A stretch of DNA of 64,000 bases, taken from NCBI GenBank assembly GCA_903813345.2, contig CAIIXF020000007.1, positions 12,568,714-12,632,713 on the forward strand, given 5' to 3'. The DNA is from Owenia fusiformis (taxonomy: Eukaryota; Annelida; Polychaeta; Sabellida; Oweniidae). This document shows, piece after piece, positions 360 to 61,753 of the stretch (position 1 is its first letter; each line of letters begins with the position of its first letter). The translations under genes and the position numbers were made by a program. The notes below the pieces were generated by a model. The model did no database searches. It was not told the DNA's origin and saw only the letters and a list, made by a program, of their open reading frames with translations.

Positions 360-3300
360 TTATTCCAGCTCATGTTTGGTGAACCAGTCTCTTAGTTCTG
401 CTTCATGGTTCTGCATCCAAATAATATTCAAATGAATGGCCTCAAGGGATTGTCTCACCACACGCATATCTCCTACTTTATCATCAAAAAATGACTTTAC
501 CTGGAAATTAGAATATATATCTAAATATATTAGCAAACCTCTTGGACACTATAGAATTTTCCATTGGTAAAACGTCCCTTAAAGACTAACTTTTAACCAA
601 TACTGTATTGTAAAATTGTAAAATGTATGTTTATCATGTAACTGTACTGTAATTGTTTTTTGTAATTGCTTTAACATGCTTATTCTTTGAAATAAAAAAA
701 TTATAAAAAAAAAAGTTAAGTTTCAAAGAGTGGTCAAGAAATGATTTCTTTCAAGCTTTAACACTCGTCCCCCCCCCCCCCCCCCCTTTGCAACCCCCGC
801 CACCCTAAAGAAAGAGGACAATACTGTACCTGATCATAGTCAAATTGTGTAGAGAAGTACTTTGTTGAAGAGAATACAAGACCAGTGAAGGCAAAGCTTC
901 CTACAATGTGCCTAGAAGAAAAGAGAACAGTTACACAGTACAATCTTTAATTGGGGATGTCTTATACAGTAGAACCTGTAATTGTGGATGTCTTGTACAG
1001 TAAAAAAATATATAATTGTAAGTCGTAGACAGTAAAATCTGTGTGTATGTCTTATAATCTGTAATTGTATGTAGGTTTAAGCTTATGCTGGACCTGGAAC
1101 AGTTTATAGTATAATCAACTTACTCTCTGACTAGGGCCTCCCAGTTCTGTTGTACAAATCTCCAGTTGAGCACAGTACCTGCCGGGTTGAGAGCCACATG
1201 GGCTATAACACTAACTTGGTCCTGGGATCTAATCTTACTCTTGTCCAGGGAATACTGTAGAAGCCTGTGAGATAGAAATATATAATGTTAAATTGAAACA
1301 ATTCTGCTTAAACATATTTGCAAACTAGAATAAATCTAGTGTCATTCACAATATTCTTCAAAGTATTGGATTAAGTACTTATTACTTAAATGAAGGACAC
1401 CTCAACTCACCAATTGAGAAAGTATCCATTTTCTGTGTAAGTTAGAAACTCACCTGTTTAGAAGGTATTCATTTTCTGTGTAAGTTAGAAACTCACCTGT
1501 TTAGAAGGTATCCATTTTCTGTGTAAGTTAGAAACTCACCTGTTTAGAAGGTATCCATTCTCTGTGTAAGTTAGAAACTCACCTGTTTAGAAGGTATCCA
1601 TTCTCTGTATAAGACAGGGACATCAGATAGATTCTCCTCTCTGAGGGTACAGTCTCCTTTAGGTATTTCTGGAACATCCAATCCCAGGTGTCCTCGTCAC
1701 AGTACTGCAGAGCTGCCTTGAATACAGTTGACTTCAGGTTAACAGGGATCCTGTGTAAGAGATGTACAAATATTGATTTTAACTTGTTGAGATGAGTTTT
1801 ACAAAACTTGACTCTTTATGTGTAAAGGTGATTAATTTTAAATGTGGAAATGTTCACATATCATGGTGGATTACTTGATACCAAATTTCTGCCTAAAAGA
1901 CTTCATGCATTTCAAACCAAATACTGCCAAAGGATGGCGCTCATTTGAAAAGGTTGTAGAGCTCTTCTGCATGTATGCTGTGTGAAATGATTGAATTTGA
2001 TTGTGGCACATTCACAAATGTTTTAATGCTTCGGATGAAATTTTGAATTTTCAAAGATTTGACCAGAATTTGAACTTAAATCTGAAAAGTGGTTTGGAAC
2101 AACCCAGTCAAATTAATATTTTTGTACTTTTCTTAATTTCAAACCATCTTTTTTACATGTGTATTGTGTTATTTATTACTACTTTGACTTACGGGACATC
2201 ATTATTTTTCCAATTATTAAATAATTCTGTAGCTTTGTCAATTGATGCTTTGTGGCCACAGCTCACTGCCATAGAAAGTATGGAATTCCGCAAATACCTG
2301 GAAATATAGACGTGGAAAGTGATGATGGTTGCCATGGAAAGTGGGGATGGTTGTCATGGAAAGTGATGATGGTTGTCAATGTCGTAGTATCAAAGCATAA
2401 TCAAATGTTGGAATGGAATTTACAAATATAGAAAAACATGGAATTTGGTGAGCAAAAACTATTGTAAAATTTTAACTTATTTTTAACTTATTTTCTCAAC
2501 TTGTCCTTATAGGATGTATATAAATATCAAAGGCTTAGAAGAGTAGTTTATATAGAAGTTTTTTGAAGAATATCATCAACTAGATTCATTTTCATCCATT
2601 AAATCTGTTTTCTTTATATCATATTGAATGAAAGATGAGTATCCAGTCCAAATGTGTAAGTAAAAATACCAATATTATAAATGCACAGCAACATACTGTA
2701 TCAAGGCTTTGAAAAGGAATGAAAATCACTTTAATAGTTATACACAACCTTTAAATCATGTTGCACCTTTAGTGCCTCCATACATTGTGAAAAATGACTT
2801 TGCAATAACATGCATTCTTACTTCTCTAGGTGGTCACCCTGTGTATCATTCCAGCCAACCTGCTCTATTGTGGGACCAATGATCCTTAGCACATATTTCT
2901 GGAATAGCAGATATCTTACTTCTTATGTTATCTTTTTGCAGTTTTTCTAAAATAACTCATAACTTCGGCAATGAATAGATTTTTTTCAATTTTCCTTACA
3001 ATACTAGGACAAATCCATTTTCAAGCTTAATTATATCACACCTGGTGATTGGAAAAAATGAATGTTCATTTCCCAATCACTGGGTGTGTACATGTACATT
3101 GTACATACTACAGAAACGCCACCTTACAGTTACAAATGGAACTCTGCATAAAAATCAATACAAGTCAATGATGTAAACTTAAGGAGTACAATTCCAGGAG
3201 CACATACCTTAAAACTCTCATAGACAGCCGGCCTGCTATAGAGCTTATTCTGTATTGAATAAAGGTGCCCTAAGGCAGCATTCCATGGAAGGTAATCACG

Positions 3301-6300
3301 CTCATTCACTAAATATTGGCTCAGATTCATTGATAATTGGGTATTGACAATTCCAGCCCTGGAGAGTGAAAAGATATCTCCAATTATTCCTGCCCTGTCT
3401 CCTTCATCTATAACCTACAATGGAGAATATGGTAAATGTGAATTTTTGCTATGGCACCCACTAACCCACTTGCAAAGATGTATAGATGCACATACGCATG
3501 CATGCCTCTCAGCACAATATGACTGCAACATACAACTCTGAAAAAGTTCGAGTAGCGAGGAAATTCCACATTAATTCCACATCTAAGCTCCCATCATAAT
3601 TCAAGAGAGCTTCATTTGAGATTTTTAAGATCTTTCCAGCATCAAAATTATAAAAGCAATTGATGAAGTCAGAATGTGGTAAGCATATGGGGTTTCAGAG
3701 TTAAAATTACCTTGTGATCTTCCTTAAACTGATTTATTAGAGTCTGCCACGACTGTTCATCATAGTTCACCCTGTAGTAGCCCACACACTTGTAGTTACC
3801 CTTGAACCATTTGACATCTACAACACAAATTTAGAATTGCTCAACATGACTCAACTCAAACAAAAACAAGGCATACCCATGCAAAATGTCACCAACTGCC
3901 ATTTTATACCAACGCCAAGCATCTAACAGTATGTGAGCTCATGAAACATGAAACATTCATTTCTAACATTACGTCCTTTTCCAATTAAGTCAATAAGATT
4001 CAAAAACTCATTGAGTTGTCATTCCATTTGCACTGATTGCACTGATTTGCACTGATTGCACTAATTGCACTGATTGCACTAATTGCACTGATTGCACTAA
4101 TTGCACTGATTGCACTGATTTGTTTACAGTTGTACAGTTCTTACCATTGTCTAAGTAAAATGTTGCAGATTCCTTGTCCATCCAGATAGTTTCACTTCTT
4201 GAGTTTTTCTTGTCTGTGAAATATGTAAATGGAATAATCCATTTGTAGCTGCAACAAATAGAAATAAGTTTCATACTCAACTCAATAAAATATCTGACAT
4301 AAGAATACCAAATTGGAATCAGTTATAGACTATTTGATCATGAAGTGGCACTAACATATTAGCACAGCTTCAACAAGAGTAAACTACTCTAAATAATAGG
4401 CTTACGTGGTGCATAAACTTACTCATATGGAGACTTAAATTCAGATTCCTGAGTAGCATTTGGGTTCAGTAAGAATCTCTTTTGAGTAGCTACGACTTTT
4501 GATCCGTCTCGCATCAAAGTGACAACTGGATAATTCATTTGGAGAGTCCATGTGTCCATCATACGAGCAACATCTTTTATAGTACTACTGGCCTACAAAA
4601 AATAGTTAGTTTCTTAGTACAAAATACCTAATGCCCCACAGCCAACAAATCTACTGATCCAATGTTATGACAATAACAGACATAACATGCAAAATGTCAC
4701 ATCCTGCCATTTGTTACAGATGTTGACCACAGAACCCCTAACACTGAATGCCAATTGACCTTTCATACAAAAATCCTGAAAGTATTAAACGTACCATTGT
4801 TTTTCAGTGTCATTTCGTACTACAAATATGAATACTGAATGGCATCAAGGAGTGTCAATAAATGGTGAACAATTAAATAGGATAAATACTTTAACATTAC
4901 TCCATTATATTGATCATATTTGTTTCAATTAGAGTTATTTGTTATTTATCATCATGTTGTCTCTCACTTTTGCAAGCATATATATTACACCTACCTCGGA
5001 TAGGGAGTCCCACAGATCTTTAGTTTCTGCATTACCAAACTGGAATTTGTTAAGATACAACTTGAGACCCTTCTGAAGGACCCCTTCTCCCAGTACATCA
5101 TTCAGCATTCGTAAAATTGAAGACCCCTGCATAGAGTTGTAAAACCATTATAAAATAAGAATACTACAAATCTTAATAAAAAATGTTTCATATTTCACAT
5201 ATTCATGCACCAGAATTTGCTGGCCAATATGCATGGTCTAAATCCAGACAAAATCATCCCACTAGGATTCCATATTAATATAGATTACAAAGGTGTAAAA
5301 TATTCAGTTCATGTTGATATAAAATTGGTCTCTAATGATATCAATCACAATGACAAATCCACCAAGTTCTGGGCTCACAACTACTATGAACAGCAATTCA
5401 ATGATATGACTTGGAACAACAAAAAAAGTCTTTAAATGGAGAGTTAATGGCAATATTGTAGATCATCTGATTACAGAATCTATCCAGGAAATATGCATAT
5501 CCACCCTCATGTATCTAACACCATTTATTTATCCAATAAACTTCAAGTTCAATTCATTTATTAAACTGACACACAATCTTAAGGCTCACACTTGTACTCA
5601 CCTTGTCATAGGAAATTGCATCAAATATTTCATTGATTTCATTTGGGTTGTCAACAGGAACAGCAATTGGGTGCGAATTACTGAGACTGTCCAGGCCCAT
5701 AGCTTTTTGGAGGACATTCACGATAAATTGCTCATCCAGTTTGAAAGATGGATCAAAGTGTCCCGCCCCAATGTTCTCTACATAGCTGGCGAACCCCTCA
5801 TTCAACCACAAATCATTCCACCACTTCATGGTTACTAGGTTACCAAACCACTGCAACACAAATGATTTGACATTATCATCCTATTCCTATGCAACAGTTG
5901 TAAAACCTTTTGTCAATTTTTGCAGAAACTTGATATATGCCAGGCATTGATTTATATATTATTTGTATAATGTTCAAATCAGATTTATTGTTTCCCGAAT
6001 AAAATAAAGCTTCAACAGAAATATACGACTCTTTTTGCTTCAAATCTGTTCAGGAAAACAAAAGTGAAAATTTGAGACTTTCTAATACAATTAATGAGGA
6101 TATGAATACTTGATGAGGAGCCCGTCCCTATGTTTAAAAGCACAGCGTCTCCAAAATTATGTCAATTCCATCTTTAAAATGAACAGAAAAAATATTACAA
6201 ATGAAAAAACATACTTGATGAGCCAGTTCATGAGCCACTACAATGGCCACCCATTCCTTACTGCTTTCAGGTGATAGCTTAGGGTCATACATGATAGCTG

Positions 6301-9300
6301 TCATCCTGTATGTTATGAGGCCCCAGTTCTCCATGGCACCAGCTCCAAAGTCTGGGATAGCTATCAGATCTGAAATATATACAGGGTGAGCCATGTCTAT
6401 GAGTAAACTGCACCAAAAAGTCATATGATACTTGTGTCAAATTGTAAGAGGACATCATTTTCCAAAACGAAAAACATCGTTATTTCAATAAATATATGTA
6501 CTCTGGTTGTGAATTTGTAGGTTTGTTTGAAAGACTGAGATAGGATGCATAAGTGGGGTGAGATTTAACACTGTTGACTAAGAATAGATAGGAAAACTTA
6601 TCATTTTTCTGGATTAATAAAAAAATATGTGCACCTTGATCGAACGATCTTGATCTTCCCTCTCTTTAAATTGTCAGTGTATGGCTAGTTAATAATCTAT
6701 TTACCTTGCTTTGGTAATGGGTATTTTACACCAAAGAATTCCTCATAGTAGTTGAGTACATTTACGGCAACATCCAGAGCATATTTTACGAGATCTATCT
6801 GGTCCTTGGGGGCATGAACAGAAACCTAGAAAAATAGGCAAACCATAGAGTGCGTGTAGCAACATCTACGATGTATTTTATATGATCTATTTGGTCCTTT
6901 ATTAAAACCTAGAATATCTAAATAATATTCATCTTCTGCTGTTTCAATGACTTGTGATGACAAGTTTACTTGAAAGCTTGTACATTAACAGGTCAAGTCA
7001 AATAACATCATTATCTGCAAATTTCTGATATTGAAAAAGTATATCCACATGAACGACCAAGCCAGCCTGGAATTATCAGTTTGTCATTAACAAGACAATA
7101 AGCTACATTTCAATATATCATTTGAAAGCTTATTAGATTTCAAAATTGACTGTTATATGTTCCACAAATTAGAGCTTAGTTACTTTCATGTGCTAAACAG
7201 TGTCATTATTGATCTCCCAGAAGACCTTCAATATTCCCAGTGAGAACATCAACTTTACTTATAAGGGTCATCCATTTGATCTTAAGAATCAATTTTTCCA
7301 GAAAAACAAATTAGGCTTAGTTTAAGACATGTCAATGTAGTTGGTAGAGTTATGAAACGTGACTAAAAATAACTTGGCTTTTAAGGTTAGATTTTTAGAT
7401 TATAAAGAAACAAATATTCATAATAAAAAGCTCAGATCCCAAAAATCAAATGGTTCACCTCTCTTCACATTATTAAATAAATGCTAGCATGGTTCACTGT
7501 GAAGAGTGTTGAAAATAATGGATAGGTTACTTTGACCAAGAATAACATGGATCAATTTAATCTTGGGAGCATCTTAATCTTATTTACAAGTTGTGATCGA
7601 GAATTCATCTTTATTTTCAAAATCAAATTTTGTGTTTTATCTTGCGCATAAGATATCAACCTAATGATGCAAATGCCAGCATGAATAATTCATGTTATAT
7701 ATCATGATGGATGAGTATAAGTAGGATTAAACCCTGATAAAACAAGATGATGGCACTACATCTGTCAGTGTAAAAATTACATACTGAATTGTATTGTATA
7801 CTGGTAGCCTTGCCCTAAGTCGGTATTTTTTACTTATCTGATCTTGAATTATTACCGCCTTGTACAATCTAATGCATCATCACTGATATTATGATAAGTT
7901 ATTCAACGATTGACCAATCAAAACGATATCTGCATAAACAAAGCAAACTACCCTTCTACGACTTTCAATGATCTGATTGAGTATTTCTTCAGAGTTACAA
8001 TATGTTATGTAATTAAGTGTGCATTGGAATGTAAGCAGTCATTAATATAAATTAAATCATGCGATTCAATGTTGATTTAACACTGAATTCACAATGAAAA
8101 TGCACAAAGACCTAGTCCATGTAGTCTCCGATCTGATTCAGTGATTGATCTGAATCTATCATGTCCACAACGTTTCTTGTTGAAATCTTCTCACCTCCGG
8201 GTATTGTATTATACGTGTGTATATACATGTATGTGCATAATAATGAGCTAACGCTGCAGGACAGTCATTGATTGGTCAAATTTACTGACATAAACATTGG
8301 GTCGGTTAAGCATGTGGCTTTCCCATTGGTACAAGGCGGTCATAATAAAAATAAAAATAAGTAAGACTTTGGGCAAGGCTAGTATACTGGTTATTAACAT
8401 TAAGAGATTTGATTGTATACATATACTTACAGTAATATTCCTGTCAGTTTTCTTTGTTAAAGATTCATAATCAGTTGTGACGATAAATGCAACCAAATAT
8501 GTGCTCATCTTCACAGATGTCTCAAACTTATCAACTTTGTATTTCTCAGCGTAATTTTCGGTGGTTCTTAAAGGCATGTTAAACAGAGATTTGTGTGTTG
8601 GCTCTCGTACCATCTTCATGGTGAAAGTGGCCTTGAGGTTAGGTTCATCAAGGCAAGGGAATGCTGCACGGGCATCAGTGGGCTCAAAGTGGGTGGTAGC
8701 AATGTACCTAAAAATGATTTTCATTTACAAGTTAAATATGAGGGGACAATATCTAAAAATACAGTAAAACCTCTAAAGTGAAACACCTCCCAAGTGGAAC
8801 AGTATTTGATGTATCAAAGGCATTCCACTTAACACAGGTTTTAGTGTATTATAGCAATTTTTTCATGAGAGTATGATCATTTGAAAAAATATTCTACAAA
8901 GAATGCAAAATTATGAGTTCAAGTAAGCGTGACCACATGCTAATCTCAAGTAAGCGTGACCAAATGCTGATCTCAAGTAAGCGTGACCACATGCTGATCT
9001 CAAGTAAGCGTGACCACATGCTAATCTCAAGTAAGTGTGACCACATGCTAATCTCAAGTAGGCGTGACCACATGCTGATCTCAAGTAAGCTTGACCACAT
9101 GCTGATCTCAAGTAAGCGTGACCACATGCTAATCTCAAGTAAGCGTGACCACATGCTCTCAAGTAAGCGTGACCACATGCTAATCTCAAGTAAGCGTGAC
9201 CACATGCTGACCTCAAGTAAGCGTGACCACATGCTAATCTCAAGTAAGCGTGACCACATGCTAATCTCAAGTAAGCGTGACCACATGCTAATCTCAAGTA

Positions 9301-10772
9301 AGCGTGACCACATGCTAATCTCAAGTAAGCGTGACCACATGCTAATCTCAAGTAAGCGTGACCACATGCTGATCTCAAGTAAGCGTGACCACATGCTAAT
9401 CTGGCCAGTCTCAATGATGTTCAGATTTACCATAAATTTACACTGAATATACCTACCTAGTTGTGCCACTTGCATCTTTATAAGTACTTCTGTAGAAACC
9501 TGCTAGCTTATCCATTAATGTCCCTTCAAAATCTAATGACAATACATACTCCTGTCCTTTGCCTAGTTGTGCATCAAGCCCAAAGTAGAGCATCTCATAG
9601 GCCTTGTATTCCAGGACTTGCTTTATAGCAACTCTTTTATTTTCAGATCTTGGCTTCAGAGATTGTGCGTTGATTTTTAGATCCTTTATATGTACAATAA
9701 CAAAGTTTGTGCTCTCTGTGGCTTGTAAAACTATATCTATACTCCCAGTGTATTTGAATGTAGTGAGGTTGGGGTGCATTAGGATGTCATAAGACAATGG
9801 AATGATGCTTGAGGGGAGGCGGATATCCCGCCACGGAAATGGTTCACCATTTGTTGAAATGAAGTCATCCTTCTTGGGAGCTTTTGTTGGTGTTTTATCA
9901 GAGTCAGTTTTCTGGCAGCTTTGGTCACCTGGGCGGGCAAGGGAGGCTATTAATGCTATGCTTACGATACATAGTCCCACCACAAGAGCGATGACAGTAG
10001 CTCTCCCTTGACTGCATACAATCTGGCGACATCGCTGTATAGGATTGGGCTCATACACCGACCTCTTGTCAGATTTCCCTCCTTCTGAAAACACACAAAG
10101 AGTAAAGTTTAATTGAACTATCTAGAAATCATGCAATTCTAACAATACTGCAAATAATTTAAGTGAAGAACTTCAGGAAACATTCATAAACTAAGTCAAC
10201 ATCAATTTCACATGAATACTTTCTTCTATGTATCCATGGGGCCGCGGAATGTTCATTTGTGAACAATAAGTGAATAATGAAAATAAGATGACATTTTGAG
10301 TAGAACTGACGTGGCAATGTAGTACTTTATTGAAGGAGAAATTGTTCTATTGACTGAAACTGATACAGCATATTGCAAACTTCAGTTATTAATGCTGTTA
10401 TAATAACACAAGACTTCACTCGATTTGCTAACAAAAAGCAATCAACTGATGAAAACTACATTGTATAATACGAGTGCTAAAGCATCCTGCTGAGTATTGC
10501 ATCTCTGAGAGAGGTAATAATTAATGCAATATGTTAGGCCACATATTTCTATGTCACTGAAACGTTCAATAAACAATACACAAAAAATGAAAATGAACAT
10601 AATCAACCTAACAATGATAAAGTTCAAGTTAATTTTGAACAATAACTAATAACATAAAGTATAATTTAAACATCAATTTACGAAAACAAAAATTGTGAGA
10701 TCTAATGAAACATTTACCACTTCGATAAGCCAAGAATGGAGAATCATCGTCACTATCAATTCTAGTCGTCAT
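360..10772 (-). CDS. M1 zinc aminopeptidase, ERAP/LNPEP/APN-like, type II membrane protein
   Basis: Trims N-terminal residues from peptides at the cell surface or inside vesicles or ER. Exons in transcript order: 10772-10718, 10084-9457, 8707-8431, 6825-6705, 6369-6215, 5850-5602, 5126-4995, 4592-4423, 4248-4145, 3817-3711, 3414-3208, 2898-2822, 2297-2193, 1750-1583, 1264-1124, 911-830, 500-360. All junctions are GT-AG and in phase; the total is 972 codons, normal for the family. Seen: an acidic cytoplasmic tail, a membrane anchor at about residues 47-68, the beta-sandwich domain, GAMEN (371-375), the zinc site HELAH (407-411) with the second glutamate at 430 (HExxH-x18-E), the catalytic tyrosine near 493, and a full helical C-terminal domain. 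Motifs such as [17 protein letters not shown] and [14 protein letters not shown] are closest to ERAP/LNPEP, but orthology within the clade is not resolved. All catalytic residues are present. Six alternative first exons lie upstream. Introns carry three tandem repeats. Confidence 0.95.
1411..1605 (-). repeat. 43-bp tandem repeat copying the end of aminopeptidase exon 14 and its 5' splice site
   Basis: Four near-identical 43-bp units begin in the last 20-odd bases of exon 14 and continue into the intron. The GTGAGT donor recurs at a strict 43-base spacing (plus-strand complements at 1577, 1534, 1491 and 1448). Each intronic unit also carries an acceptor-like TTACACAG, so each could act as a 22-base microexon flanked by AG and GT. 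The donor nearest the exon keeps the reading frame. Confidence 0.9.
3037..3088. repeat. Short palindrome in an aminopeptidase intron
   Basis: An imperfect inverted repeat with arms of about 24 bases (CACACCTGGTGATTGG and its complement CCAATCACTGGGTGTG) and almost no loop. It may be a tiny foldback MITE; no target duplication was recognised. Confidence 0.5.
4026..4122. repeat. Simple tandem repeat, 9/18-bp unit
   Basis: The unit TTGCACTGA/TTGCACTAA alternates through this stretch, directly downstream of aminopeptidase exon 9. It keeps an open frame across itself, but there is no other sign of coding. Confidence 0.85.
8915..9403. repeat. 27-bp minisatellite, 18 copies, in aminopeptidase intron 2
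   Basis: Unit AAGTAAGCGTGACCACATGC plus seven bases, repeated 18 times; one copy is 24 bp. Copies are nearly identical, so expansion is recent. Because 27 is a multiple of three and the unit lacks stops in several frames, long repetitive open frames appear on both strands. These are by-products of the repeat. Confidence 0.95.
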
Positions 10773-12110
10773 ATCTTCAGCAGGTTATCCTACAAATCCG
10801 ATTGTCTTATCAGAACATTGTATCAATATTCAATAGCCATTGTATCAATATCCTCCAAAACAATAGTGAAATCCATATTAGTTAGACACATCAACCTGTT
10901 GCTCTGTAAACATCCATAATAAAACTGATCAATATTTGAAAATAGGCAATGATATTAAACTTTCAGCAGGTGCTCTTGTTAATACATATCCAACCTGCAT
11001 CAATTGTTATTTCCAATCATTAAACACAACTCCATTATTTAACACAACTCCATTATTAAACTGTGCATAGCATATTATCAATCAGACATCGACATTACGC
11101 CTAGAACTCATTAAAATAATCCCTCGCTGGCAGATCCTTGGAATCCAAATGAATCATGAGTCTTCATGAAACAACAAGAACTCAACTGCGCATTGAACAA
11201 GTGAACGAAATTGCAAATGCTAAAATAACAATATTTTCAACCCTAAAGTCACTACCTAAAAGGTTACATTTTTAGCGGCTATGTAGCCATAGTGGAATAT
11301 CAATAAAAACAACATTGGACAAGATATATATTCATTACATTGGTTCATTGAGACATTCTAATCTATTTTGTTATTAACTGACAGGCTGCTGAGAAAATAA
11401 TGATTGCTCCATCAATGCTATGCCTTTGCGAATGAGTTTAATAAAATGGCCACCTGCACTGCTTCCCATACTTTACTATATCTGTGACATTCTAGAATTT
11501 TCTACTTGCAAACAGAATCAATTAGGACAAAACATAAAATATGATGGGAAAACAGAAATTATGAAAGGTAAAACAGAAAATATGACGGATGACACAAAAA
11601 CATTTAGGTCAACACAGAAACCATTTAGCTATATCTCAACTATTTTCAATGCACAAGTAGTTGTGGGATTGATTTGAAAAATGAACCCCAGATGGGGGTA
11701 ATCACTGTTAAAGGTTGTATATAACTATTAAAGTGATTTTCACTCAAAACAGCATGTTGCTATGCATTTATAACACTGTTTTTACTTAAACACATTTGGA
11801 GTGAATACTCATCTTTCATTCCATAAAAGAAAACAAAAATTGATAAAATATTGATGAAGTGGGAGCTGTTACAATGACCCCCACTTTTAGCAATTTTCAG
11901 AAAGTTTCGTTCATTGCATTTAATACATGTAAGGGCCCCACCTTAATTCAATTACAATAACATTGCCATTTTTAGGCATATTTCTTAAAAGCATTATGCG
12001 CTATTATTATCAAATAGTTGTATTAATATGAGGAATCGATTGCAATATGATAGAATGCTTATTATACTCCAGTTAGAGTTAATTTTGAATATAAATGTGA
12101 AATAATTTGG

Positions 12111-12808
12111 CAAATCCATAGGGGTCAAGGAACATAAAAAAGTTGGAACGGTTCGGTTCGGAACATTTGGCTTCGGGACGGAACAATTTCAGAACTGTTC
12201 CAGAACAAAGTGACTATGACTATTATACTCTAACTTGCCCCATTTATTGCAGGACAAGATCTAATCATTTGCAACAAAACTACTTACTTTTGCGAGTCTA
12301 TGAACAATGACTGGATATCTAGCTTGTACAGGAAAAAAAAAAATTAGATCTATCTAGATCTGTCCTAGAAGTATAACTAACCCCTGACTGCAATATTTCA
12401 AAACGGGGATTTTCCGCCCTTCGAAGCATCCTCAATTGTTTTTGGGTATCAGATCATTTGACATTTAGCCGCCGCCATGATCAGTGCAAAGTTGCAGATC
12501 ATACTACTCCAGAAAGATAAACACTCAGCATATTTAGAACGTATAAAATAAGTTGATCGAGTATGTCTATCTGGTAACAAAAACCTCTTTAAAACTCTTC
12601 AATGAGAAGGAGTGAAAAATTGACTTATTTCGATGAAAAGAAAAATGCCGTTTTGCAGCGATTTGAGGGCTAAAAGCTGTGTAAAGGTACGATTTTCTTG
12701 TTCCGGAACTAAACCAAAATGTTGATTAATTGTTCCGAGTTCCGACCCGAGAGCCAAGTTTGGCAGAACAGAACAAAATCGGGTATCCATGACACCTCTA
12801 GAAATCCA
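12111..12808. mobile_element. Non-autonomous hAT-like DNA transposon, about 680 bp
   Basis: Element 12119-12800 has imperfect terminal inverted repeats (TAGGGGTCAAGGA against the complement of TCCATGACACCTCTA). It is flanked by 8-bp near-identical direct repeats, CAAATCCA and GAAATCCA, as hAT insertion produces. Subterminal GTTCGGTTCGGAAC-type runs recur. No transposase is visible. Confidence 0.7.
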
Positions 12809-13252
12809 CTTAACAGTTTGGGGCTTTCTCCAAAGCTATCGTTGTTAGGGTAATGACGTCACATTACATTAGATTTTCCCAAGAGCGGGCTATGAGTATG
12901 ATGACATCAATATGCGTTGGGTGGTATGGAGACAATCATTGTGATATTTGTTTTGGGGAATCCCTAACAACTACTTTCACTTTCGTTATGAGAGCACCTT
13001 CACATTTGATTAGAAAGCGAAAGTGTAATTATTGCATTTAATTGATGAAATTGAATCTAATTGACGGTATCCTTCAAAAAACTTATTTTTATCGTTTTCT
13101 AAGCTCTTCATAGTTATACACACCCTTTAAACTATATATCTGCTTTAAATGGGCTTGTTAGCCTTTTGCAGATTATTGATGTACATGTAGATGTAGAGGG
13201 AAAACCCTAGAGCTTCAGAGAGATGACAGACATAATTATATCTCCTGCTTAC

Positions 13253-13301
13253 CACCTTCATCTGTCGTATTTTCACTGGCTAGCTTACAAATATAGCACA
13301 T
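13253..13301 (-). CDS. Candidate alternative first exon 1b of the aminopeptidase
   Basis: ATG at 13301-13299 opens MCYICKLASENTTDEG and ends with one base (G) before the donor GTAAGC. That phase-1 end is what common exon 2 at 10084 needs, giving GAA (Glu), as exon 1a does. The tail would be short, acidic at its end, with two cysteines. No transcript evidence is available. Confidence 0.5.
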
Positions 13302-13599
13302 TGTTGTGATGTTTTTGTTGTGATGTTCATTTGTATATGATTTAATCAATTACTGACTAATCAACATGCCAGAAATTTACATAATATCATTGTCTTTAAA
13401 AAATATTTAAACCACCATTGAATGACTTCATTTGTCTGTCGATTTGACCAATCAGCGATACCGGGGACCATGTCTTCTCATGGTCTTCTCAACACAGATT
13501 TACAATATAGACATACATGTATATCGTCTTCTTTGAACCCTGGGTTTATTCCTCTCTTTCAATCTAAGTGGAGCACCTGTGAGTTTTTATATTGTTTCT

Positions 13600-14146
13600 A
13601 TACTTATTTCTTACTCTACCGAGCTGACAGAAGTCCGCTCTGGCATGCTGGATTGAAAATTCTTGAAGAGAAAAAATCAAGCCCATTTTGACTAAAGGCT
13701 GAGTATAATACACTATATATTTGAATCAATACATAATTTATTTGTTGTTACCTTGCAGCCATTTTAGGTCTCGCGAGATCTCTTGACTTTCGAAAGTAAA
13801 GATTTGCTTCAAAATAACTCGCGCTAGCTAAATATGAATAGTCACGTGATCTTTTAGTGGCAATGCCCATGCGCATGTAAAGCACAATACGCATGTGCAT
13901 GCATGCGCAAAAGTTAAAAAATGGTGCGCACCAGGTCTGGAATTTCTCCACTTAATTGCAAATTACACAACAAGTAGGATTCATTGTCACCACGCGTCAT
14001 GAAAAGGGCAAGTTACATTCAATTATCTTCTTAAATACCATTTTACTTATTCCAGCGTGCCTGCTGAAAGTAGGAGGAAACCACTTCACAAGAAGGTATA
14101 TTTAAACGTTCCCCCAGGTGGCTCAAAAGCCAGCTGTGTTCAGTAA
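13600..14146 (-). repeat. Dispersed repeat 'family A', uninterrupted copy
   Basis: This stretch is colinear, in reverse orientation, with pieces scattered through 21990-26665. Shared segments include the CTCGCGAGACCTAAAATGG stretch, the CATGCGCATGGGCATTGC stretch, and AACGTTC/AAACCACTTCAC. Here they run without the MITE insertions, so this copy serves as an empty-site reference. No open frame or target duplication identifies the class. Confidence 0.75.
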
Positions 14147-14446
14147 CTTATTTCTTTTTCATGACATTTTTCATGCTTGGAAAATGAATTATTGAATCAT
14201 GGGCTCTACAGTGGGGATCATAAAGAATTGCAAAAGCTATGAAAATTACATGCTGTCGCACATATAATAAATTCTTACCTCAGTGTATTCAGTGCTCTAT
14301 TTTCTCCATCTTAGTAAGTCCAAATATAGTGGAATTTGTGTCCATAATGACAAATAAGAACTAAAAAAAGTTGAAGTGGATATTCACATGTTATGCCGAC
14401 TCTTCAAATGTTGAGGTGATTTTGTCGCCCGATTGCGCCGGAACGG

Positions 14447-14568
14447 AGGATTGGCTCCCAGAATGCAACATGACACGTGCCAGCTTTCAAAATGCTGTTC
14501 CGCCATTTTGAAACCTGTCATGAGTAAATACGGTTAACTGATGTTGCATTCTGGGAGTCAACCATCCT
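14447..14568. repeat. Foldback repeat, about 120 bp
   Basis: Inverted arms of about 25 bases (GGCTCCCAGAATGCAACAT at 14453-14471 against its complement at 14541-14560) around a 70-base loop. A small MITE is likely. Confidence 0.6.
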
Positions 14569-14629
14569 TGGATAACAAACATGGCGATTCATGAAAACAT
14601 TCGTTCGATTTGGTAGGGATTTATCTTAC

Positions 14630-14663
14630 CTTCTTCTAAGGCCACTGTATCGTATTCCTGCAT
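14630..14663 (-). CDS. Candidate alternative first exon 1c of the aminopeptidase
   Basis: ATG at 14663-14661 opens MQEYDTVALEE, then one base G and a strong donor GTAAGA. Phase 1 matches common exon 2. It is the shortest candidate; a short open frame plus donor could arise by chance, so its support is mainly the shared phase and position. Confidence 0.45.
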
Positions 14664-15383
14664 GAACAAATGGTCATGGGGGGTAGGTATGAAAAATTTC
14701 GAACGGAATGCGTGACATATACGTGATTCGCGTGAAAAATCCGAACGAAATGCGTACGTTTTTTTTCGGCGTTCGTATTTTTGCTGTGTAGACGAACTTT
14801 TTTAGAAATTTTTTTTTTCCACATCACAATTTGAATTGCGAGTTTTAGCCTCACCAAAAATTCCAAAACACACATAAAGTGATCAGTGTTAGATCAGTGT
14901 TAGTTCACATCTTCTGGATCGCTAACTTAGAATTTACAGCCAGTTACTAATGTCAGACGTTAACGACATTTCGTCCAGTTTTCGAACATCGCCATTTTTC
15001 TTGGAGCCATTTTGTTTTAATTTTAGACGAAATCCTGATGAAATTATGTCATATCTCATCAAGGAGCCGAGCTGGGTCCGGTTTGATTAATGATTTATTT
15101 ATCTGGCGATTTTTAAAATATTCAATAAATTTATGACACCCCGGCCAGCTTTTTTCAAATAGAGTTCACAGTATTCCAGATGCAATCCCCTCTAGCCAAG
15201 TATTGGCTAGAGACTCGAGTAAGATTTATCCATTATTTGCAGGTATGAAGCTTTGGAATCATTTATTGTGCTACTTTAGTGAACGGGAATTATTTTTCTA
15301 CCGCTTGGGAGAGTTTGAGACACGAAACTTGGAATTTAGCTCATTGTGACAACTTGTGAACGTTGAGTTTTATTATTGTCCCC

Positions 15384-15910
15384 CACTAAGAATTTCTACA
15401 TCTAAAATGTCACTCGACTTTTTGGCAATTAAAAGTCCCTGCCTGCATTTAGTAGTCATATATTGTCATGTGCATAATTTTGAAACCATATCCTAATTAT
15501 TTCACAAACCCTTTGTTGATTCTGCCATAGTTTCCAATTTGTAAACAGCATTTAGCCTTTTTAATTGGGAACTTTTTTGAAATTTCCAAAATGGCTGCCA
15601 TGTGATTCCAGAATTAACATGAGTGTGACGTGACATCACAGTTGCTCGTTCCTAGGTAACAACAAGATCACAATTGCTCGTTTCTAGATAGCAACAAGAT
15701 TTTTGATAAAATGGCACAGAATTACCCTGATTAACACCCTAAAATCCGATTTTCAAAGAATATATTTGGAGAAACAATAAAAGGTAAGTGGAATAAATTA
15801 GAAGATGGTTTTAAGTTACCACAGAAGTCAATTTGAAACTCAAGAATGCTTTCTTTGACTCATAATCACAAAAATGTCAAGTGACATTTTAGATGGAGAA
15901 TTTCTTAGTG
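15384..15910. repeat. Inverted-repeat element, about 527 bp
   Basis: Terminal arms of about 35 bases (CACTAAGAATTTCTACATCT onward, and its complement ending GAATTTCTTAGTG). No open frame of note lies between them. It directly abuts the next foldback element. Confidence 0.65.
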
Positions 15911-15912
15911 TA

Positions 15913-16312
15913 AAGTCCATTTCACTGCTTCATTTCGTTAGTAGAACGGCAAAAATAAGAAATTGGGAGACCATTGTGCAATAATATATGAAAAAGTATA
16001 TTCATAATGTACATGAATGACATTTGTTAATTGTATATTTCAGATTTTTTAGTTTTTTGTGCAATAAGCCTGTGCCGTCTTGTAATTTGAAGAATTTCAG
16101 CCATGTTAATCTTATTGAAAATAACATGGCAGAGAAACATCCAAATATAAGAGGCCACACACTTTATAAGCCAAACTAGAAGCAATCCAAGATATACAAA
16201 TGTCATTCATGTACATTATGAATATACTTTTCCATATATTATTGCACAATGGTCTCCCAATTTCTTATTTTTGCCGTTCTACTGACGAAATGAAGCAGTG
16301 AAATGGACTCTA
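15913..16312. repeat. Foldback element with long arms
   Basis: Arms of about 115 bases at 15913-16028 and 16197-16312 are inverted and nearly identical (for example ATTGGGAGACCATTGTGCAA and its complement), around a spacer of about 170 bases. The structure could form a long hairpin. Non-coding. Confidence 0.8.
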
Positions 16313-16355
16313 GGAATCAAAAAATTCTGATCTGAATTCCATTTTAAATACATAC

Positions 16356-16395
16356 CAGGGAGAAATGAGACGTCCTCGATTTCGGTGTCATCCAT
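16356..16395 (-). CDS. Candidate alternative first exon 1d of the aminopeptidase
   Basis: ATG at 16395-16393 opens MDDTEIEDVSFLP, then G and the donor GTATGT, phase 1. The peptide is strongly acidic like the other candidate tails. It lies just beyond the foldback element. Confidence 0.5.
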
Positions 16396-16694
16396 TATAG
16401 CAATGCTTATAGCACCCTCATATCTTTGTTAAACATTGCAACTGTGATATTACTTCTGATATGCACGATAATGAAATTAAAAACAAAAATCGTACTATTT
16501 TGCTTTTAACCGGAAGTTGCGAGTCGCGCCCTCTATTGGGTAACATCAAAAACAAAAATCAGAAAGCCGGTACCTTATTATGCCTGAATATGCGAAATAT
16601 GACAAGAACATCTGTTTAAAGTTATAGCTAAAACATCTCTGTGTTTGTATTTAACATATTTAATATGATTTCATTACTTTACATATTGTCATAC

Positions 16695-16740
16695 CTAAAG
16701 ATATGACGACTTTCTGAGGACCTCTTTGGCGAACTTCCAT
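16695..16740 (-). CDS. Candidate alternative first exon 1e of the aminopeptidase
   Basis: ATG at 16740-16738 opens MEVRQRGPQKVVISL, then G and the donor GTATGA, phase 1. It is basic, unlike its acidic neighbours, so it would give the most distinct tail if real. Confidence 0.45.
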
Positions 16741-17533
16741 CTTCTAAATGTGAAACGAAATAACAAACGTCAATAATTAACATGAGACAACATGGATTTA
16801 ACATGATGTGTCAGGACAGTGACAGATCCAGAAATTAACAAGGGAGGGCAAATTTTGAGTCTTGGAAAAAACTCCGCACTTAGCAGGGGAAAAATTGGAA
16901 AATAAGGCCCATTTTTTATAAATTGGCCCAAAATAGGCCAAATTGTGCTGTAAGCTCAGTAAGCTTAAACGTAGGTTACGCTTACGGAGAAAATACAATA
17001 ATCAACAAAACACGATCGACCTTTTCAGTCAAAGTGACTCATCGGGTATATGCTATATCTGCTTAATGCTTAATAGCCTTTTGCAGATTGTTGACATAGA
17101 CCATGGGCTCTATCAGAGCCCATGCATAGACATAGACATGCCAATCTGAATGTATCCCAATATTCCTGGATAAAAGAAACAACGAACTACAACAAAATGT
17201 AATATATTTCAAACCTCACGTGAAAGACGCAACCTGCCTAGGGACAATAGGTTATGTCTACCAATGGTAAAATAAAACAAATATTTCAATATAAAGGAAA
17301 ATGTCTCGGTAGCCCTTGGATTTCGCAAGGACGGTAACCTACAACCTGGGGAAATCATCGAAATGTATGACACGTATTGTCCTTCCATCTTCGACTTCCA
17401 ACGTGTTAGAACTCACCCGGAATGACCTGCTCAATGTCGATTGACCTTTATGAAACTTGAAATATCTCCATGACGCCATGAGCCACAAAAGCAAAATCAA
17501 ATTATTTGAAAGGGTAAAATCTCAGAGACTTAC

Positions 17534-17645
17534 CAATAATTTTCTTTTTATCATCTGTACTAATATCATCATATGTAGTCGTATTACTGCTTACACTGGC
17601 ATCATTGGTGGGCATGTTGTCAAAACTATTGTAATAATTTGCCAT
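17534..17645 (-). CDS. Candidate alternative first exon 1f of the aminopeptidase
   Basis: A 37-codon start exon: MANYYNSFDNMPTND at the N-terminus, a Ser/Thr/Asp-rich middle, and an end DDKKKII before G and the consensus donor GTAAGT (phase 1). It is clearly homologous to exon 1g, sharing spacing and the ends MA..Y.S.D.M and DDK..II, with about ten extra codons in the middle. The DxxxII end resembles an acidic dileucine-type sorting signal. Confidence 0.65.
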
Positions 17646-18026
17646 CTATAAAATCTACTGACGAGCCAAATGGATATTTTTGTGTTACTTTAATACTACG
17701 GGCTTTAATAACTGTTGATAAAAATAGCCTAAATGCTTAGTAAACACGGTATTCATAAACAACATTTAAATGTTAGCCTGGGTATAAATGTAGTATTTTG
17801 AAAATGAAAACCCCAGGATGAAAGGACACAGTGACACATGACAATTTAGTGGCACCCTAAACTATTTGATTTTTCATATGTCAGTCTATCCTCAACTAAT
17901 ACTTGGGTTTTCAAATGTTTTCGCCTATTAATTCAATTGACTTTTATTCCCGCATGAATGGAACTAGTCTTTGTCCGGGCTTTGATATCCATAGTAGAGC
18001 CTTTTTAAATGTGATTCCTGTAGTTG

Positions 18027-18431
18027 CACACCGGAACACCCTGACAACGGTAAAGTGAGATATCGTTGTCACAAATGACGGACATAACCGTCGCTTCAAC
18101 TCTTTAATATCTCGGTTCTCTCATTTCATGAGACCTCATCGTCGTTGATTGTGTGCATGTATATTAAGCTATGATGATGTATTATATGAAATTCCAATTC
18201 GATCAAATGTGGTCGCAAAACTATGTATGTCTTTCATATCGCCAATGACAAACTGAATATGAATTTCAAATAATCAACTGTGGAGGGATAGATCCGGTTA
18301 TTTATCGGTATCCGTTGACCCGTGTCATATTTTGATCGGTAAAATTAAATTACTCAAATCGAATACGAACATGTGGGGGCCATTTGTGACAACGGTATCC
18401 GGCTTAACCGTTGTCAGGGTGTTCCGGTGTG
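18027..18431. mobile_element. MITE, about 405 bp
   Basis: Perfect or near-perfect terminal inverted repeats beginning CACACCGGAACACCCTGACA. AGTTG occurs immediately outside both ends and may be the target duplication. Non-coding; superfamily not assigned. Confidence 0.75.
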
Positions 18432-18947
18432 AGTTGGACGGCAATGATTTTTTAATTTTTCACAGTAGATAATGAAAATGGTATTATCAAACTTTGACAT
18501 CTGAACATATTTTCATACTTTTCCATTTTAACTTTAACACAATCAACCCTGGTATTATTGACAGGAAAATACCTCTAAAATGTGATATTTTTCCCGGGAT
18601 ATCCCCTGCAATTAATACGCTGTGTACGTGTTTAGCCCCGTGTTTACCGTAACGCCCCAATAAACAATACAACGCACTCAATAATGATAATGAAATCTGA
18701 TATTCTCAATAGAGATCGAGTTAGTATTACTTCACATTCAAGAGAATATACGATTTAACAATAGCAATCATTGTATTATGGCGAAACAAACAGTGGTAAC
18801 ACTTGATCCTCGGGCCTTGGTCCCAAGCAGTAAAGCATGAACACAGCGAAAATAAGTTGCATGGATTTTATTCCATGCATTATACCATAAAGAGTCTTAG
18901 ATATATGAATAATTCTAAAGGTTTGTAAAAGATATCCAGGAACTCAC

Positions 18948-19029
18948 CAATTATGTTTTGTTTATCATCTTCCGTATTACTGACATCGCTCGACATGCTG
19001 TCTAAACTATGGTAACTTTTATCCGCCAT
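18948..19029 (-). CDS. Candidate alternative first exon 1g of the aminopeptidase
   Basis: A 27-codon start exon: MADKSYHSLDSMSSDVSN at the N-terminus, ending DDKQNII before G and the donor GTGAGT (phase 1). It is homologous to exon 1f. It is the most upstream candidate, about 2.3 kb from the divergent POLR1B start, and would give a 981-residue isoform with a DxxxII motif before the shared juxtamembrane region. Confidence 0.65.
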
Positions 19030-24300: not shown

Positions 24301-27300
24301 TTCAAAGTTTCCAGACAACAAAAGAGCTACCATTGACCTGTTTCCAGGTTTACTAAAAGTAGACAGTGTAATGATACTTTCCTGAAAAAAGCAAGGAAAT
24401 ACACACATGCCTTCATACTTAATTTTGTACCAGAAAATAACATGTGCAGGTATAGCAATTTTTTACCAAAATGTTACTTTCCAGCTGAACCTTAAAGAGA
24501 GAATCAGATATAGCGAGCAGGCTAAACAAAAAATTGTTTCAATTTTAGAATATTTTTGGCTCATGTCATTCCTTGTCATGTCTATTTTCTAAAAATAACA
24601 AAAGTGCATACTTTATTTCAGGAAAACTAAAGATTTTTACAATAATGCATTATTTTTCTATAAGAATGGTTACCATTCTTATTATTTGGGAGAATTTAAA
24701 CATTTTTCACCCATTTTTGCACTTTGAATCATTAATAACTTCACCAATTTATAACATATTTTGAATCTTTTGGGAGATACTGTATTTGATATTGTAAGGA
24801 ATAGATTTGTAGGTCAATTATACATGTTACTTGTAATTTTGTCACCCCCTATAGATCAGATTCTGCCTTTAAGGTCAGGGTGCATGATGGGAAATTTTCT
24901 GCATTCCTCAATTGAGTCACATGTTATTTTTCAAACAAGAATCACTCCTTCCCAACATTGTCTATATCTTCCAGTTTTGCACAAAGAGTGCACCTATGTG
25001 CCTAGAAAAGACTTGTGAGAAGGATGTTTCGATAAAGTGTATAAAAAACAAGAAAATTCAGTGATAAAACCAGAATATTTTCAGAATTTTTTTTCACTGA
25101 ATTTTCTCATTTTTTATACATTTTACAAAACAAACCTCACAAGGCTTTTCTAGGCACATAAGTGCACTCTTTGTGCAAACTTGGAAGATGTAGACAATGT
25201 GGGGAAGGAGTTATTCTTGTTTGAAAAATAACATGTGACTCAATTGAGGAACGTAGAAAATTTCCCAACATGCACCCTGTCCTTAACGTGGAGAAATTCC
25301 AGACCTGGTGCGCACCATTTTTTAACTTTTTGCGCATGCATGCACATGCGCATTTTACTTAAGGCGAAGCTAAAGTAAATAAAAAGTACAAAAAATGACT
25401 GCCATATTTTTTTTGATAAAGACACATGTTTTTAAAATCTGTTTACCTTGTATATGAATTGTATATCTTGACTAATGAAACATGTCAAAGTTAACATCAC
25501 ACATAAACGCATTTTTCCAAACTATGAATTGGAGGTGCATGGATCCCCATAACTAGCATGAAGAGTGCGAAGTGAGGCTAATTTTTGAAAGTTTCAAGGA
25601 GTAGCCTTGCAACAGTCACACATTTGTAAGAGTCTAAAATTTCCACAAATCATCTTACCTTTCCCAGGAACAACGAAGGAGCATGAAAATGTGCACTGCT
25701 TGCATTGTTAGAGTATAATAAAGCTCAAACCACTGTAAATTCTAAATATTTCATGTCTACCATTTTGTTTGCCAGAACTACTTCTAGACTTCCTGATTAA
25801 ACCTCATACAAGTTTTGTGACTACACCAAGTGGCATGGATTATCACTTGTATATTTTGTCTATTACAGTATAATTATCACGATAGATACATGATAGAGGC
25901 TTTATGAATGATAAACAATGGATACATGAATGAGGATAACTCTGGACTAAAAAATAGGTCCAGGAAACAAAATGGTGGACATGAAATATTTAGAATTCAC
26001 AATGGTTTGAGCTTTATTATACTCTAACAATGCAAGTACACATTTTCATGCTCCTTCGTTGTTCTTTGGTACTGTACAGTAAGATTATATCTGGAAATTT
26101 TGAATTCTTGCAAAGGTGTTACTGTTTCAAGGCTACTCCTTGAAACTTTCAAAAATAGCCTCACTTCACACTCTTCATGCTAGCTTTGGGGAGCCATGCA
26201 CCTCCAATTATGTTATGAAAAATGTGTTTAAATGTGAGGTTTTCTTTTATGTGTCTCTTTAGTCAGGAAATGCATTCACATACAAGGAAAACAGTATGCA
26301 AAATCTTCTCTCTTTATCAAAAAAATATGGCTCCCATGTTTTTGTACTTTTGATTAACTTAAATGTCACCTTAACATGGGCATTGCTGCTGAAAGATCAC
26401 GTGACTATTCATATTTAGCTAACGCGAGCTATTTTGTATTACTTTCGAAAGTAACGAAATCTCGCGAGACCTAAAATGGCTGCAATCTAAATTCAAAAGT
26501 TTTGTTGTCTAATAGAACATTGATTTGTACCTTATTTTGTTCATTCAACAGTCTGTTGTTGTGGTTTACAAATAAATCATGTATTGATTCAAATATATAG
26601 CGTATTATAAACGCTACTCAGCACAGCGTTAATTTTCAATCCTGCTTCTTCGGTAGAGTAACTCAATAGGGTCACTTGTTATTTTTCAAATTTAAATCAC
26701 TCCTTCCCAATAATAATAATAATAATAATGTTTATTTCAAAACTTCTAAGGCCACAGGCCTCCTAGTTACAGTTAGTTTTCATACAATTTTAGACAGTGA
26801 TAAGCAAAACAACTTAAATTACAAATTAAGTTTTCATTTTCAGTTGACATTAACTGTATAAATTTTACCATATTTGGTCTATAACAATAATAATCTGGCA
26901 AATACATTTTTCTTAGAGATCTGAATCTCTCACATATCATAACCATGTGGTACTCATCTCCAATAATATTAACATTTGCTGCTAAACAGAACTTACAAAA
27001 CCGTAGTTCCCTGGGCACATTATTTCTTCGACCCATTTCAATTTCTAATGAATGATTACTACATCTCAATCGAGTTAGAGCAACTCTAAATTTATTTATA
27101 TTTACACAGGAAAGATATTTTTCTCTTTCCATCACTGTTTTAATATTACAATATGTTACCATTTTTGGTAATTCTGAAAGTCTAGCAGCCCACTCTTGAC
27201 AGTAAATGTCTTTTAGCCTCTGCTTAAAACTTAAAATAAAAAGGTCCACATCACCTACTTCTTTGAAAGCCCAAACATCACCAAAGCCATTTGTACACAA

Positions 27301-30300
27301 TAACTTTCTAACATGTGTTGCCCATGTAATATGGCCTGTTGAATCAAGGTTCTCTAACATAGAAAAACAATGTTTTGGGATTCTCCCATTTTCCATCTCC
27401 ATATTTAGTTTTAACCAATATTTTACACATTTTGACATATATATTGTACATAATGGGTATCGTCCACATTCCCCTAGAACTGCCTCATTTGTTGTTTGTG
27501 ATGCAACTTTAAGAAATGATTTACAAAATTTTCTTTGAACCTTTTCCACTTGGTCGTAAACTTTAAAACCCCATATTTCTGAGCCATATGTTAAAATAGG
27601 AAGTGTCAGAGAATCGAAAAGTCTGAATCCCATTTCAAATGATAATGAGCCACCTAATTTTGAGATTTGGTTTATGACATGTAGTGACTTTCCACCTTGA
27701 TTGGCTAGTGTTTTGGTTGCGACTGACCAGTTTAACCTAGAAGAAATCATTAAACCCAGATATTTGTAATAAGAAACTATTTCTACATTTTTACCCTTGT
27801 ATAGCCATTTTTCATCCTTTTTAACAATACCACCATTTCTAAATACAATGATTTTAGTTTTCGAAAGGTTCACATTCATGCCAAATTTATCACAAAATTC
27901 TGATAGTATATTTAGCTGATTTTGCATATTTTCAACAGTATGATTTAAAAGACCAATGTCATCTGCGTATAAAAGTATATGTACATTATCCACACTTTCT
28001 GTTACAAATATTCCTTCAATTTCTGAACATTTATACATTTTTACTAACTGTTCTAAATATAAAATGAACAGAAAAGGGCTAATCATACAACCTTGTCTTG
28101 TACCTACTTGGCACATAAATGATTGGGTAAGACCATCTGGTGTTCTAACACATGATTTTAATTTACAGTACATAGATTGTAATGTTTTGAGAAAAGCTCC
28201 ATGAACATCCTCCTTAATTAAGTTATACCACATTTGCTTATGAGGAATAGAATCAAATGCCTTGCTAAAATCAACAAATGCTATAAAACAGCGCCCTCTG
28301 GATTTACATAAATATTTTTCTACCATAGCAGAGAGACTAAATATATGATCATAAGTGCTTTTGCCTTCTTGATATGCTCCTTGATGGTCACCTATTTTGT
28401 GATTTGTTTTAGCCCACTTAATAAATCTATTCGCTAGAACCTTTGTAAAAATCTTACCAAGTGTACAAAGTAAAGATATACCCCTGTAATTATTAACATT
28501 GTCAACTGGTGGTTTTTTTAATAATGCTGCAATGATAGCCTCGCTCCACAAATTTGGAAAGTAGCCATTTGACATGATAGAATTGAACAATAAATGAACA
28601 TATGGCATTAAAGTGTCATAACTATGTTGATACATCTCATATGTGATCCCATCTATACCATGGGCTTTCTTACTTTTTAAATTTGTAATTACATTTTCAA
28701 TTTCCACTACAGATATATTACAGTTCAGTTCATCTGGTAAATTTTGTAAACATTGATTGCAATCATTTTGGTCATGATTTTTGAGAAAGTCATCTGCAAC
28801 ATTTTGAAAGTCTTTATCTATATCGGAATCTGTAGTAAGCAAATTTTTGAAATACTCATACCATTCGACTGGTGAAATATGACCTTTTGTTTGAGACCCT
28901 TTTACATACTTAATCAATTGCCATAATTTATTTACATCATTCATACAATCTCTACATTTGCTCATAAATTCATTTTCATATACCTGTTTCTTATTTCTAC
29001 ATAATAGCTTGAACTCTTTTTTGATTGTTATATAGGCAATTAAAGATTCATTTGATTTTGAATTCCTATAATTAAGAAGACTATTTATTTTCCTTTTCTT
29101 TAATTTTGCACAATCACCATCCCACCAATCATCAGTTTTTGTATTTTGATTCCTCGGTTTAACTTTCATGCATTCAGCTCCATAGTTAATACATTTCACA
29201 ATTTTATCAACAGCACCATCTATGTTTCCATTTTGAATCATATCGTTAAATCCCCTTAATATATTTTGGGATGTTTGATCACGAATTTTGCTTTTAAATA
29301 TATTGACTTTATCAGGCTTCCAAATATACCTGTCATATTGTCGCATGTTTTGTTGATCATTTCTATTTGCTGAATGTAACATCAATTTGAGATCACAAGT
29401 TATTGGAAAATGATCCGTTCCCTCAGATGTATTAATATTGCCCACAGTGAAATTATTTATAAAATTGAAGAGGTCTGATGAGCATACACCATAGTCAATG
29501 ACGCTGCGCCCCATGGATGTGTTTATATATGTGTAGTTTCCATCTTTATCCCCCGAAAAACGACCGTTCAATATATGGATATCACATTCTTTACAAACTT
29601 CTAAGAAGGTTCTGCCAAACTCATTTGTAGTGTGATCACTTGAACTTCGTGGAAGTGAAAAGGTATCAACATTATACCAATCAGCACCAATCGGCAAATT
29701 TTGAATATCATCATTTAATATATAGTCACACTCATTCCCGGTTCTCGCATTCAGGTCCCCCATAATAAGAAACTTGCAATCTCCAAATGTTGCTTTAATA
29801 TGCCCGATTTGTTGTTCCAAACAAATAATACCATTATCCTCACCAATTCTCCAATATGTTTTTGAATACTGGGGTGGCAAATATAGAAATATAAGAAAAA
29901 CATCGTAAGTATATCCCGTCAATATTGTTGGGGCTTTCAAAATGATCATTAATTCAGACGAAATATTTTCCATGTATACTAATTTGTAGGGATGGGACGG
30001 TTCGTTTCGGTTCGGTTCGGTTTTTCGGATCATCAGCCGTCGGTTCGGTTTTTTCGGTTCGGTTCATTCATTTTAAGGATTTGTATTGATTGACATGATT
30101 AGCTGCTTTGTCTCTGACTTCACTGCTGACTGTCACTTTCTTAATCTTCATTTCTTTTGGGAAAACGGGAATTTGAGATCCAGACGCCATATTTGAATGT
30201 ATTGTGGGTGCGCACAAAATAATACCCTATATCGAACCTGCGCAAATATAAATTTGCGCAAATCTTTGTATCAATTATGCCACGTTATAACAATATTTTA

Positions 30301-53267: not shown

Positions 53268-53601
53268 TATATTTAATTATACTTTAAGTTGAGCATTGGT
53301 GCTAATCTGTGGGTTACTTTGGAATCTGTACATATTTTTGAACACCTAATATCGCTTCAATTCAATATATTAATTACCCTAACTTAATAAAACATCTGCT
53401 ATGCCTTAGGAAATATGATAATGAGAATTAAAATGATAACGGAACACCTGCTTACTAATTCAGCTTATAATATTGGTGGTAAAGGAAATTATCAGCTCCA
53501 TAGTTGACTCACTGACATAATATATTTATCAAAGGAATATAGAAGCACAACAGTATATCACCAGAGAATTCAGATTTTAAATAAAAACGGGAAATAAGAA
53601 C

Positions 53602-58689: not shown

Positions 58690-61753
<3,064 letters not shown>

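Follow-up and report, generated by a model that had tools for sequence, protein, structure and literature searches.

This report concerns a gene for an M1 aminopeptidase on the minus strand of a 64,000 nt stretch of Owenia fusiformis DNA (assembly GCA_903813345.2, contig CAIIXF020000007.1, positions 12,568,714 to 12,632,713 of the forward strand), referred to as the window, and the way in which its product may acquire different cytosolic tails. With a probability of roughly 0.6, we consider this to be one gene of the ERAP/LNPEP kind with at least two alternative first exons, termed e18 and e17, which would stem from an old duplication and would each join the common exon 2. The two candidates are homologous well beyond chance, they are compatible with exon 2 in both frame and phase, their conservation is limited to the exon and its donor, and exon 2 itself has no in-frame ATG before its membrane anchor.

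According to the model proposed here, an old duplication would have given rise to e17 and e18, and transcripts would begin at e18 or e17, and perhaps at a further candidate, exon 1a, each with a start of its own. Phase-1 splicing to the common exon 2 would then leave the anchor and the enzyme identical and change the cytosolic tail. What we infer from this layout is that both exons are transcribed, that each has a promoter of its own, and that the choice between them affects trafficking.

A duplicated pair of candidate first exons and their probable common partner

When aligned from ATG to donor, e17 and e18 are identical at 15 of 26 residues and 13 of 26 codons, and all five gaps in the alignment of the full exons are multiples of three. 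Their anchored protein score of 52 was reached by none of 106,953 shuffled block pairs (maximum 48) and their nucleotide score by one, these pairs being made of blocks of 20–45 codons without shared starts. Among the 2,415 pairs that can be formed from 70 real blocks, e17/e18 rank third by nucleotide score, and one higher-ranked pair, 40477/40930, overlaps a tandem array. The most similar ATG-to-donor blocks in the window, 36812–36866 and 39011–39065 on the plus strand, are probably a repeat. Only e17 and e18 are homologous first-exon candidates that follow one another on the same strand as the common exons, and no third copy stood out in a scan of the window.

The similarity is confined to a narrow segment. 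For the exon plus six intron bases, none of 500 shuffles reaches the score of the pair; the flanks show no similarity, as 251 of 500 shuffles reach the score of the upstream 200 bases and 200 of 500 that of the first 200 bases of the intron, with a marginal signal for intron bases 7–60 (24 of 500).

The exon to which both would be joined codes for a basic stretch, then a membrane anchor (judged by eye), and then the start of the M1 N-terminal domain, which matches Peptidase_M1_N in Pfam with an E value of 8.7e-18. Two downstream exons match Peptidase_M1 (1.3e-19 and 1.1e-30), and the GAMEN and zinc-site motifs can be read by eye in the exons (Table 1). With the first 305 residues as the query, the closest solved structures are ERAP2 (1.3e-54), ERAP1 (7.3e-52) and LNPEP (5.2e-44), followed by glutamyl aminopeptidase (2.6e-38) and aminopeptidase N (6.1e-34), in a similarity ranking, rather than a tree, of the best 60 of 78 matches. 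These similarities place the gene among the ERAP/LNPEP-like M1 aminopeptidases, the oxytocinase subfamily. No in-frame ATG lies upstream of the anchor within exon 2, and for this reason the translation start must lie upstream. The acceptor of exon 2 scores 3.5; this and all other splice-site scores come from generic matrices. A second acceptor-like site at 9928 on the minus strand, inside exon 2 just past the anchor, scores 8.4 and has the same phase; splicing of a first exon to it would omit the anchor in frame, although the site may be due to chance. In the minus-strand direction, exon 2 is closely followed by a 27-bp minisatellite of 18 copies (8919–9402).

A scan of the minus strand from 17500 to 9400 for phase-1 exons (acceptor at least 1, donor at least 2, length at least 30 bases, codon use scored) returned seven candidates, six of them inside exon 2 and the other one scoring −11.2; the full exon 2 scores 25.0, and was itself part of the training set. 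Exons that are shorter, have weaker sites, or are last exons escape such a scan, and within these limits exon 2 appears to be the only convincing phase-1 partner downstream of e17 and e18.

Two other ideas were considered and set aside. For spliced retrocopies or a second haplotype, protein searches of the 498 Mb genome gave, with exon 2 as the query, its own locus and 13 matches at 27–35% identity; a query that fused e17 with the beginning of exon 2 gave the places of these two exons only and did not detect e18. As for a parallel layout in paralogues, L003 to L007 each hold a possible start together with the anchor in a single open frame (by eye), so these paralogues show no parallel.

Seven blocks, repeats and chance

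The pair belongs to a set of seven minus-strand blocks (Table 1) that an earlier note had put forward as variable first exons of this gene. All seven were re-found: each is initiated by ATG, stays open, and ends in phase 1 with a G preceding the GT of the donor, so that Glu is completed by the AA of exon 2. The six donors listed in that note are as described, that of exon 1a being weaker, and the range of 11 to 37 tail residues is borne out in codons. The blocks exist, but the six positions listed for them are donor ends and not ATGs, and the first base of exon 2 is 10084, the acceptor ending at 10085.

Table 1. Features of the aminopeptidase gene and of the seven ATG-to-donor blocks; the codon column gives the fraction of shuffled open frames whose codon score reaches that of the block
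Feature	Position	Strand	Tail codons	Donor (score)	Codon	Comments
Downstream M1 aminopeptidase coding exons	366..9455	minus				GAMENWG, HELAHQ, WWNDLWLNE visible; splice sites by eye, partial model
Common exon 2	9456..10084	minus				Tail end, anchor, start of M1 N-terminal domain; phase-1 acceptor; 3' end approximate
Exon 1a candidate	10718..10772	minus	18	GTAAAT (1.5)	0.021	Weak donor
Block 13253	13253..13301	minus		GTAAGC (5.0)	0.158	Wholly within a high-copy dispersed repeat
Block 14630	14630..14663	minus		GTAAGA (6.1)	0.003	Dispersed repeat including the donor
Block 16356	16356..16395	minus	13	GTATGT (3.8)	0.006	Codon-like composition
Block 16695	16695..16740	minus		GTATGA (1.9)	0.289	Weak donor; without codon signal
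e17, probable alternative first exon	17534..17645	minus	37	GTAAGT (4.2)	0.016	Homologue of e18
e18, probable alternative first exon	18948..19029	minus	27	GTGAGT (4.6)	0.333	Homologue of e17

The proposal that variable first exons give this enzyme different tails can be upheld for e17 and e18, which are duplicates of each other, similar only over exon and donor, with exon 2 as the sole convincing partner, and which are probably real alternative first exons. It probably does not hold for 13253 and 14630, which are parts of dispersed repeats and probably not first exons, nor for 16695, which has a weak donor and no codon signal and is probably a chance occurrence. Exon 1a and block 16356 are candidate first exons, and 1a may be a third start.

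The repeat nature of two blocks is clear from the genome searches. Block 13253 lies wholly within the part of the query (46–161) that was matched elsewhere at 78–85% identity, self apart, among the 40 that were scored of 580 candidates. Block 14630 has 28 other places in the genome, from 29 candidates, all scored: ten span the block in one piece, six in two pieces, and twelve cover only its 3' part and the donor. Six of these copies were fetched, and four of them (L018, L019, L020 and L022) span the block with extra internal bases, whereas L021 and L023 align with no more than its 3' part onwards; five of the six retain GTAAG at the donor, L023 having GTAAC. A high-copy element of about 420 bp (14199–14625) starts at this same donor, with 95–98% identity among the best 40 of 3,214 candidates. 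For exon 1a, 16356, 16695, e17 and e18 the searches found no other genome copies, each matching its own place only. Two further repeats were seen nearby, an inverted repeat at 15911–16312 with 117-nt arms, 97% complementary, around a 168 nt spacer, and, between e17 and e18, an element some 405 bp long whose inverted ends measure 51 nt.

Regarding the number of blocks, the region holds seven phase-1 blocks whose donor scores 1.5 or more, a count reached by 5 of 500 shuffles (mean 2.3); at a cut-off of 3.5 there are five (1 of 500), and at 4.0 there are four (2 of 500). Their length is unremarkable, since a block of at least 37 codons appears in 140 of 500 shuffles at the 1.5 cut-off. Real sequence served as a control in the form of 18 of 26 tiles, those clear of the region, which overlap one another and include coding sequence. 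At cut-offs of 1.5, 3.5 and 4.0, their phase-1 maxima are 6, 3 and 3, and when the three phases are pooled, the count of the region is matched or surpassed by 3, 1 and 3 of 54 counts; phase 0 inside the region yields 7, 5 and 4 blocks, exactly as phase 1. Because other tiles and phase 0 come close to the count or match it, the count is not decisive, and we reject it as proof; the excess is modest and partly owed to the two repeat blocks.

The codon scores, set against 64 to 351 shuffled open frames per block, carry little weight as well: seven short blocks were tested, and the best score went to 14630, which derives from a repeat. Among the remaining blocks, anchored scores do not exceed those of random peptides (the smallest fraction is 0.095, for 13253 with e18), and the local score of 14630 with e17 is matched by 0.047 of shuffles, which is not notable among 21 pairs.

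The survey of upstream sequence listed open frames of at least 75 codons and scanned a few, among which were a minus-strand retrotransposon and a plus-strand Rpb2-like piece. The former is a non-LTR retrotransposon (26773–31795, minus strand) with a 1096-codon frame carrying a reverse transcriptase (26.8–30.1 kb) and a 286-codon frame upstream of it, and the latter, at 34.7 kb, is over the Pfam cut-off. Two further pieces resembling RNA polymerase, one at 44.4 kb and one at 52.0 kb, fall under the Pfam cut-offs, and a DUF229 domain is found in a 715-codon open frame (53581–55728, plus strand). The window also contains frames that resemble part of a mariner-type transposase (59757–60095, plus strand) and part of the GIY-YIG endonuclease from a Penelope-like element (46488–46889, minus strand).

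Weighing the alternatives

Several observations weigh against reading e17 and e18 as duplicated first exons. Their differences number 6, 5 and 7 by codon position, so the third position is not in excess; a dN/dS of about 0.37 was estimated, but with p = 0.13 by a Fisher test. When the window is scanned without anchoring, the pair scores 37, under one or two unrelated matches at 38, and composition-shuffled peptides reach its local score in 12 of 1000 cases. One scoring also gives two donor-adjacent intron gaps of length three, the other giving 1, 4 and 3; both ATGs have a T at −3; and the codon score of e18 is ordinary among its 147 null frames, the null of e17 comprising only 64. In addition, neither exon was retrieved by the repeat search made with the other, so that diverged copies, or a diverged repeat family, could escape detection. 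The even spread over codon positions, together with a dN/dS not significantly below 1, would suit a gene with a single first exon in use, for example 1a or e18, and the other duplicate as an unused relic. Since both copies retain an open frame, an ATG, the phase and a good donor next to flanks that have diverged beyond recognition, we regard this as unlikely, though it deserves to be kept in mind. Alternatively, e17 and e18 could belong to a separate, unrecognized minus-strand transcript that never joins the aminopeptidase: their agreement in phase with exon 2 is a one-in-three match across more than 7 kb, and a partner that is very short, weakly spliced or a last exon would lie outside the partner scan. 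However, that scan, with a codon model trained partly on exon 2, gave no other plausible phase-1 exon, and exon 2 needs an upstream start, which makes a separate transcript improbable. It is hardly credible that all blocks are accidental and the likeness of e17 and e18 a coincidence or an undetected old repeat: such blocks are indeed common, with up to six in phase 1 of the outside tiles, and copies as diverged as these would be missed by the repeat searches, but the shuffled pairs never attained the protein score, nor the 500 shuffles the exon score, and the flanks are unlike.

At the opposite end stands the view that each of the seven blocks has a promoter of its own and functions as a first exon. 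Every block keeps the frame and has a G before the donor, their number exceeds the shuffle mean, five have donors of at least 3.5 against a maximum of three in phase 1 of the 18 tiles, and 1a, 14630, 16356 and e17 have codon-like scores. Against this, two blocks are pieces of dispersed repeats, 16695 combines a weak donor with no codon signal, and phase 0 yields equally many blocks in the same stretch; we therefore hold it to be very improbable. An evolving first-exon cluster, with e17, e18, 1a and 16356 all in use, the repeat-derived 14630 recruited as a tail, and promoter choice setting the place of the enzyme, is a quite unlikely extension of the preferred reading, in which e17 and e18 would serve as the duplicated first exons of one gene.

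Tail motifs, known systems and meaning

Tyrosine motifs of the type found here serve endocytosis. Both tails keep one such motif, YxS with F or L as the next residue, and YDDI is a second one found only in e17; both also keep DDKxxII at the exon end. Given the motifs common to both tails and the additional YDDI of e17, related but unequal endosomal routing would be the likeliest effect on sorting. A canonical acidic dileucine, of the form [D/E]XXXL[L/I] (PMC2730553), is absent by eye from both tails, which read DKKKII and DKQNII at this site, the first L being replaced by I.

The closest precedent, by analogy of layout, is endothelin-converting enzyme ECE-1, and the layout is thus already known. 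According to PMC2567069, one gene produces four isoforms, a to d, from alternative promoters; these differ solely in part of the N-terminal cytoplasmic region and have different localization. The arrangement predicted here from sequence would allow isoforms distinguished by their cytosolic tails alone, and by localization. ECE-1 belongs to family M13 and not M1, and the two candidate first exons here are duplicates of each other. The comparison with UGT1A made in the earlier note is fair as an analogy of layout, with ECE-1 being closer: the UGT1 and protocadherin clusters also join tandem homologous first exons to common downstream exons (PMC1885805), but in those clusters the variable exons number about a dozen and code for large domains, and in the present gene there are two clear copies, with 27 and 37 residues of tail.

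LNPEP is a near sequence relative with the same type II anchor. In the mammalian enzyme, LNPEP/IRAP, vesicle routing is governed by the tail (PMC7550531); that tail has two dileucine motifs with acidic clusters, in contrast with those of e17 and e18, which lack a canonical one. Among the literature entries listed, titles and abstract beginnings revealed no account of alternative first exons for tails in M1 aminopeptidases, apart from a mention of LNPEP splicing variants encoding different isoforms (PMC7390905).

The finding is probably a further case of a known layout, and smaller than first claimed; it also illustrates that, as long as repeats are left in, counts of ATG-to-donor blocks give too many first exons. 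Should e17 and e18 be in use, an M1 aminopeptidase would pick its cytosolic tail through its first exon, as ECE-1 does in M13, and this would be an independent case of one routing solution for membrane peptidases, with tail exons that came from duplication.

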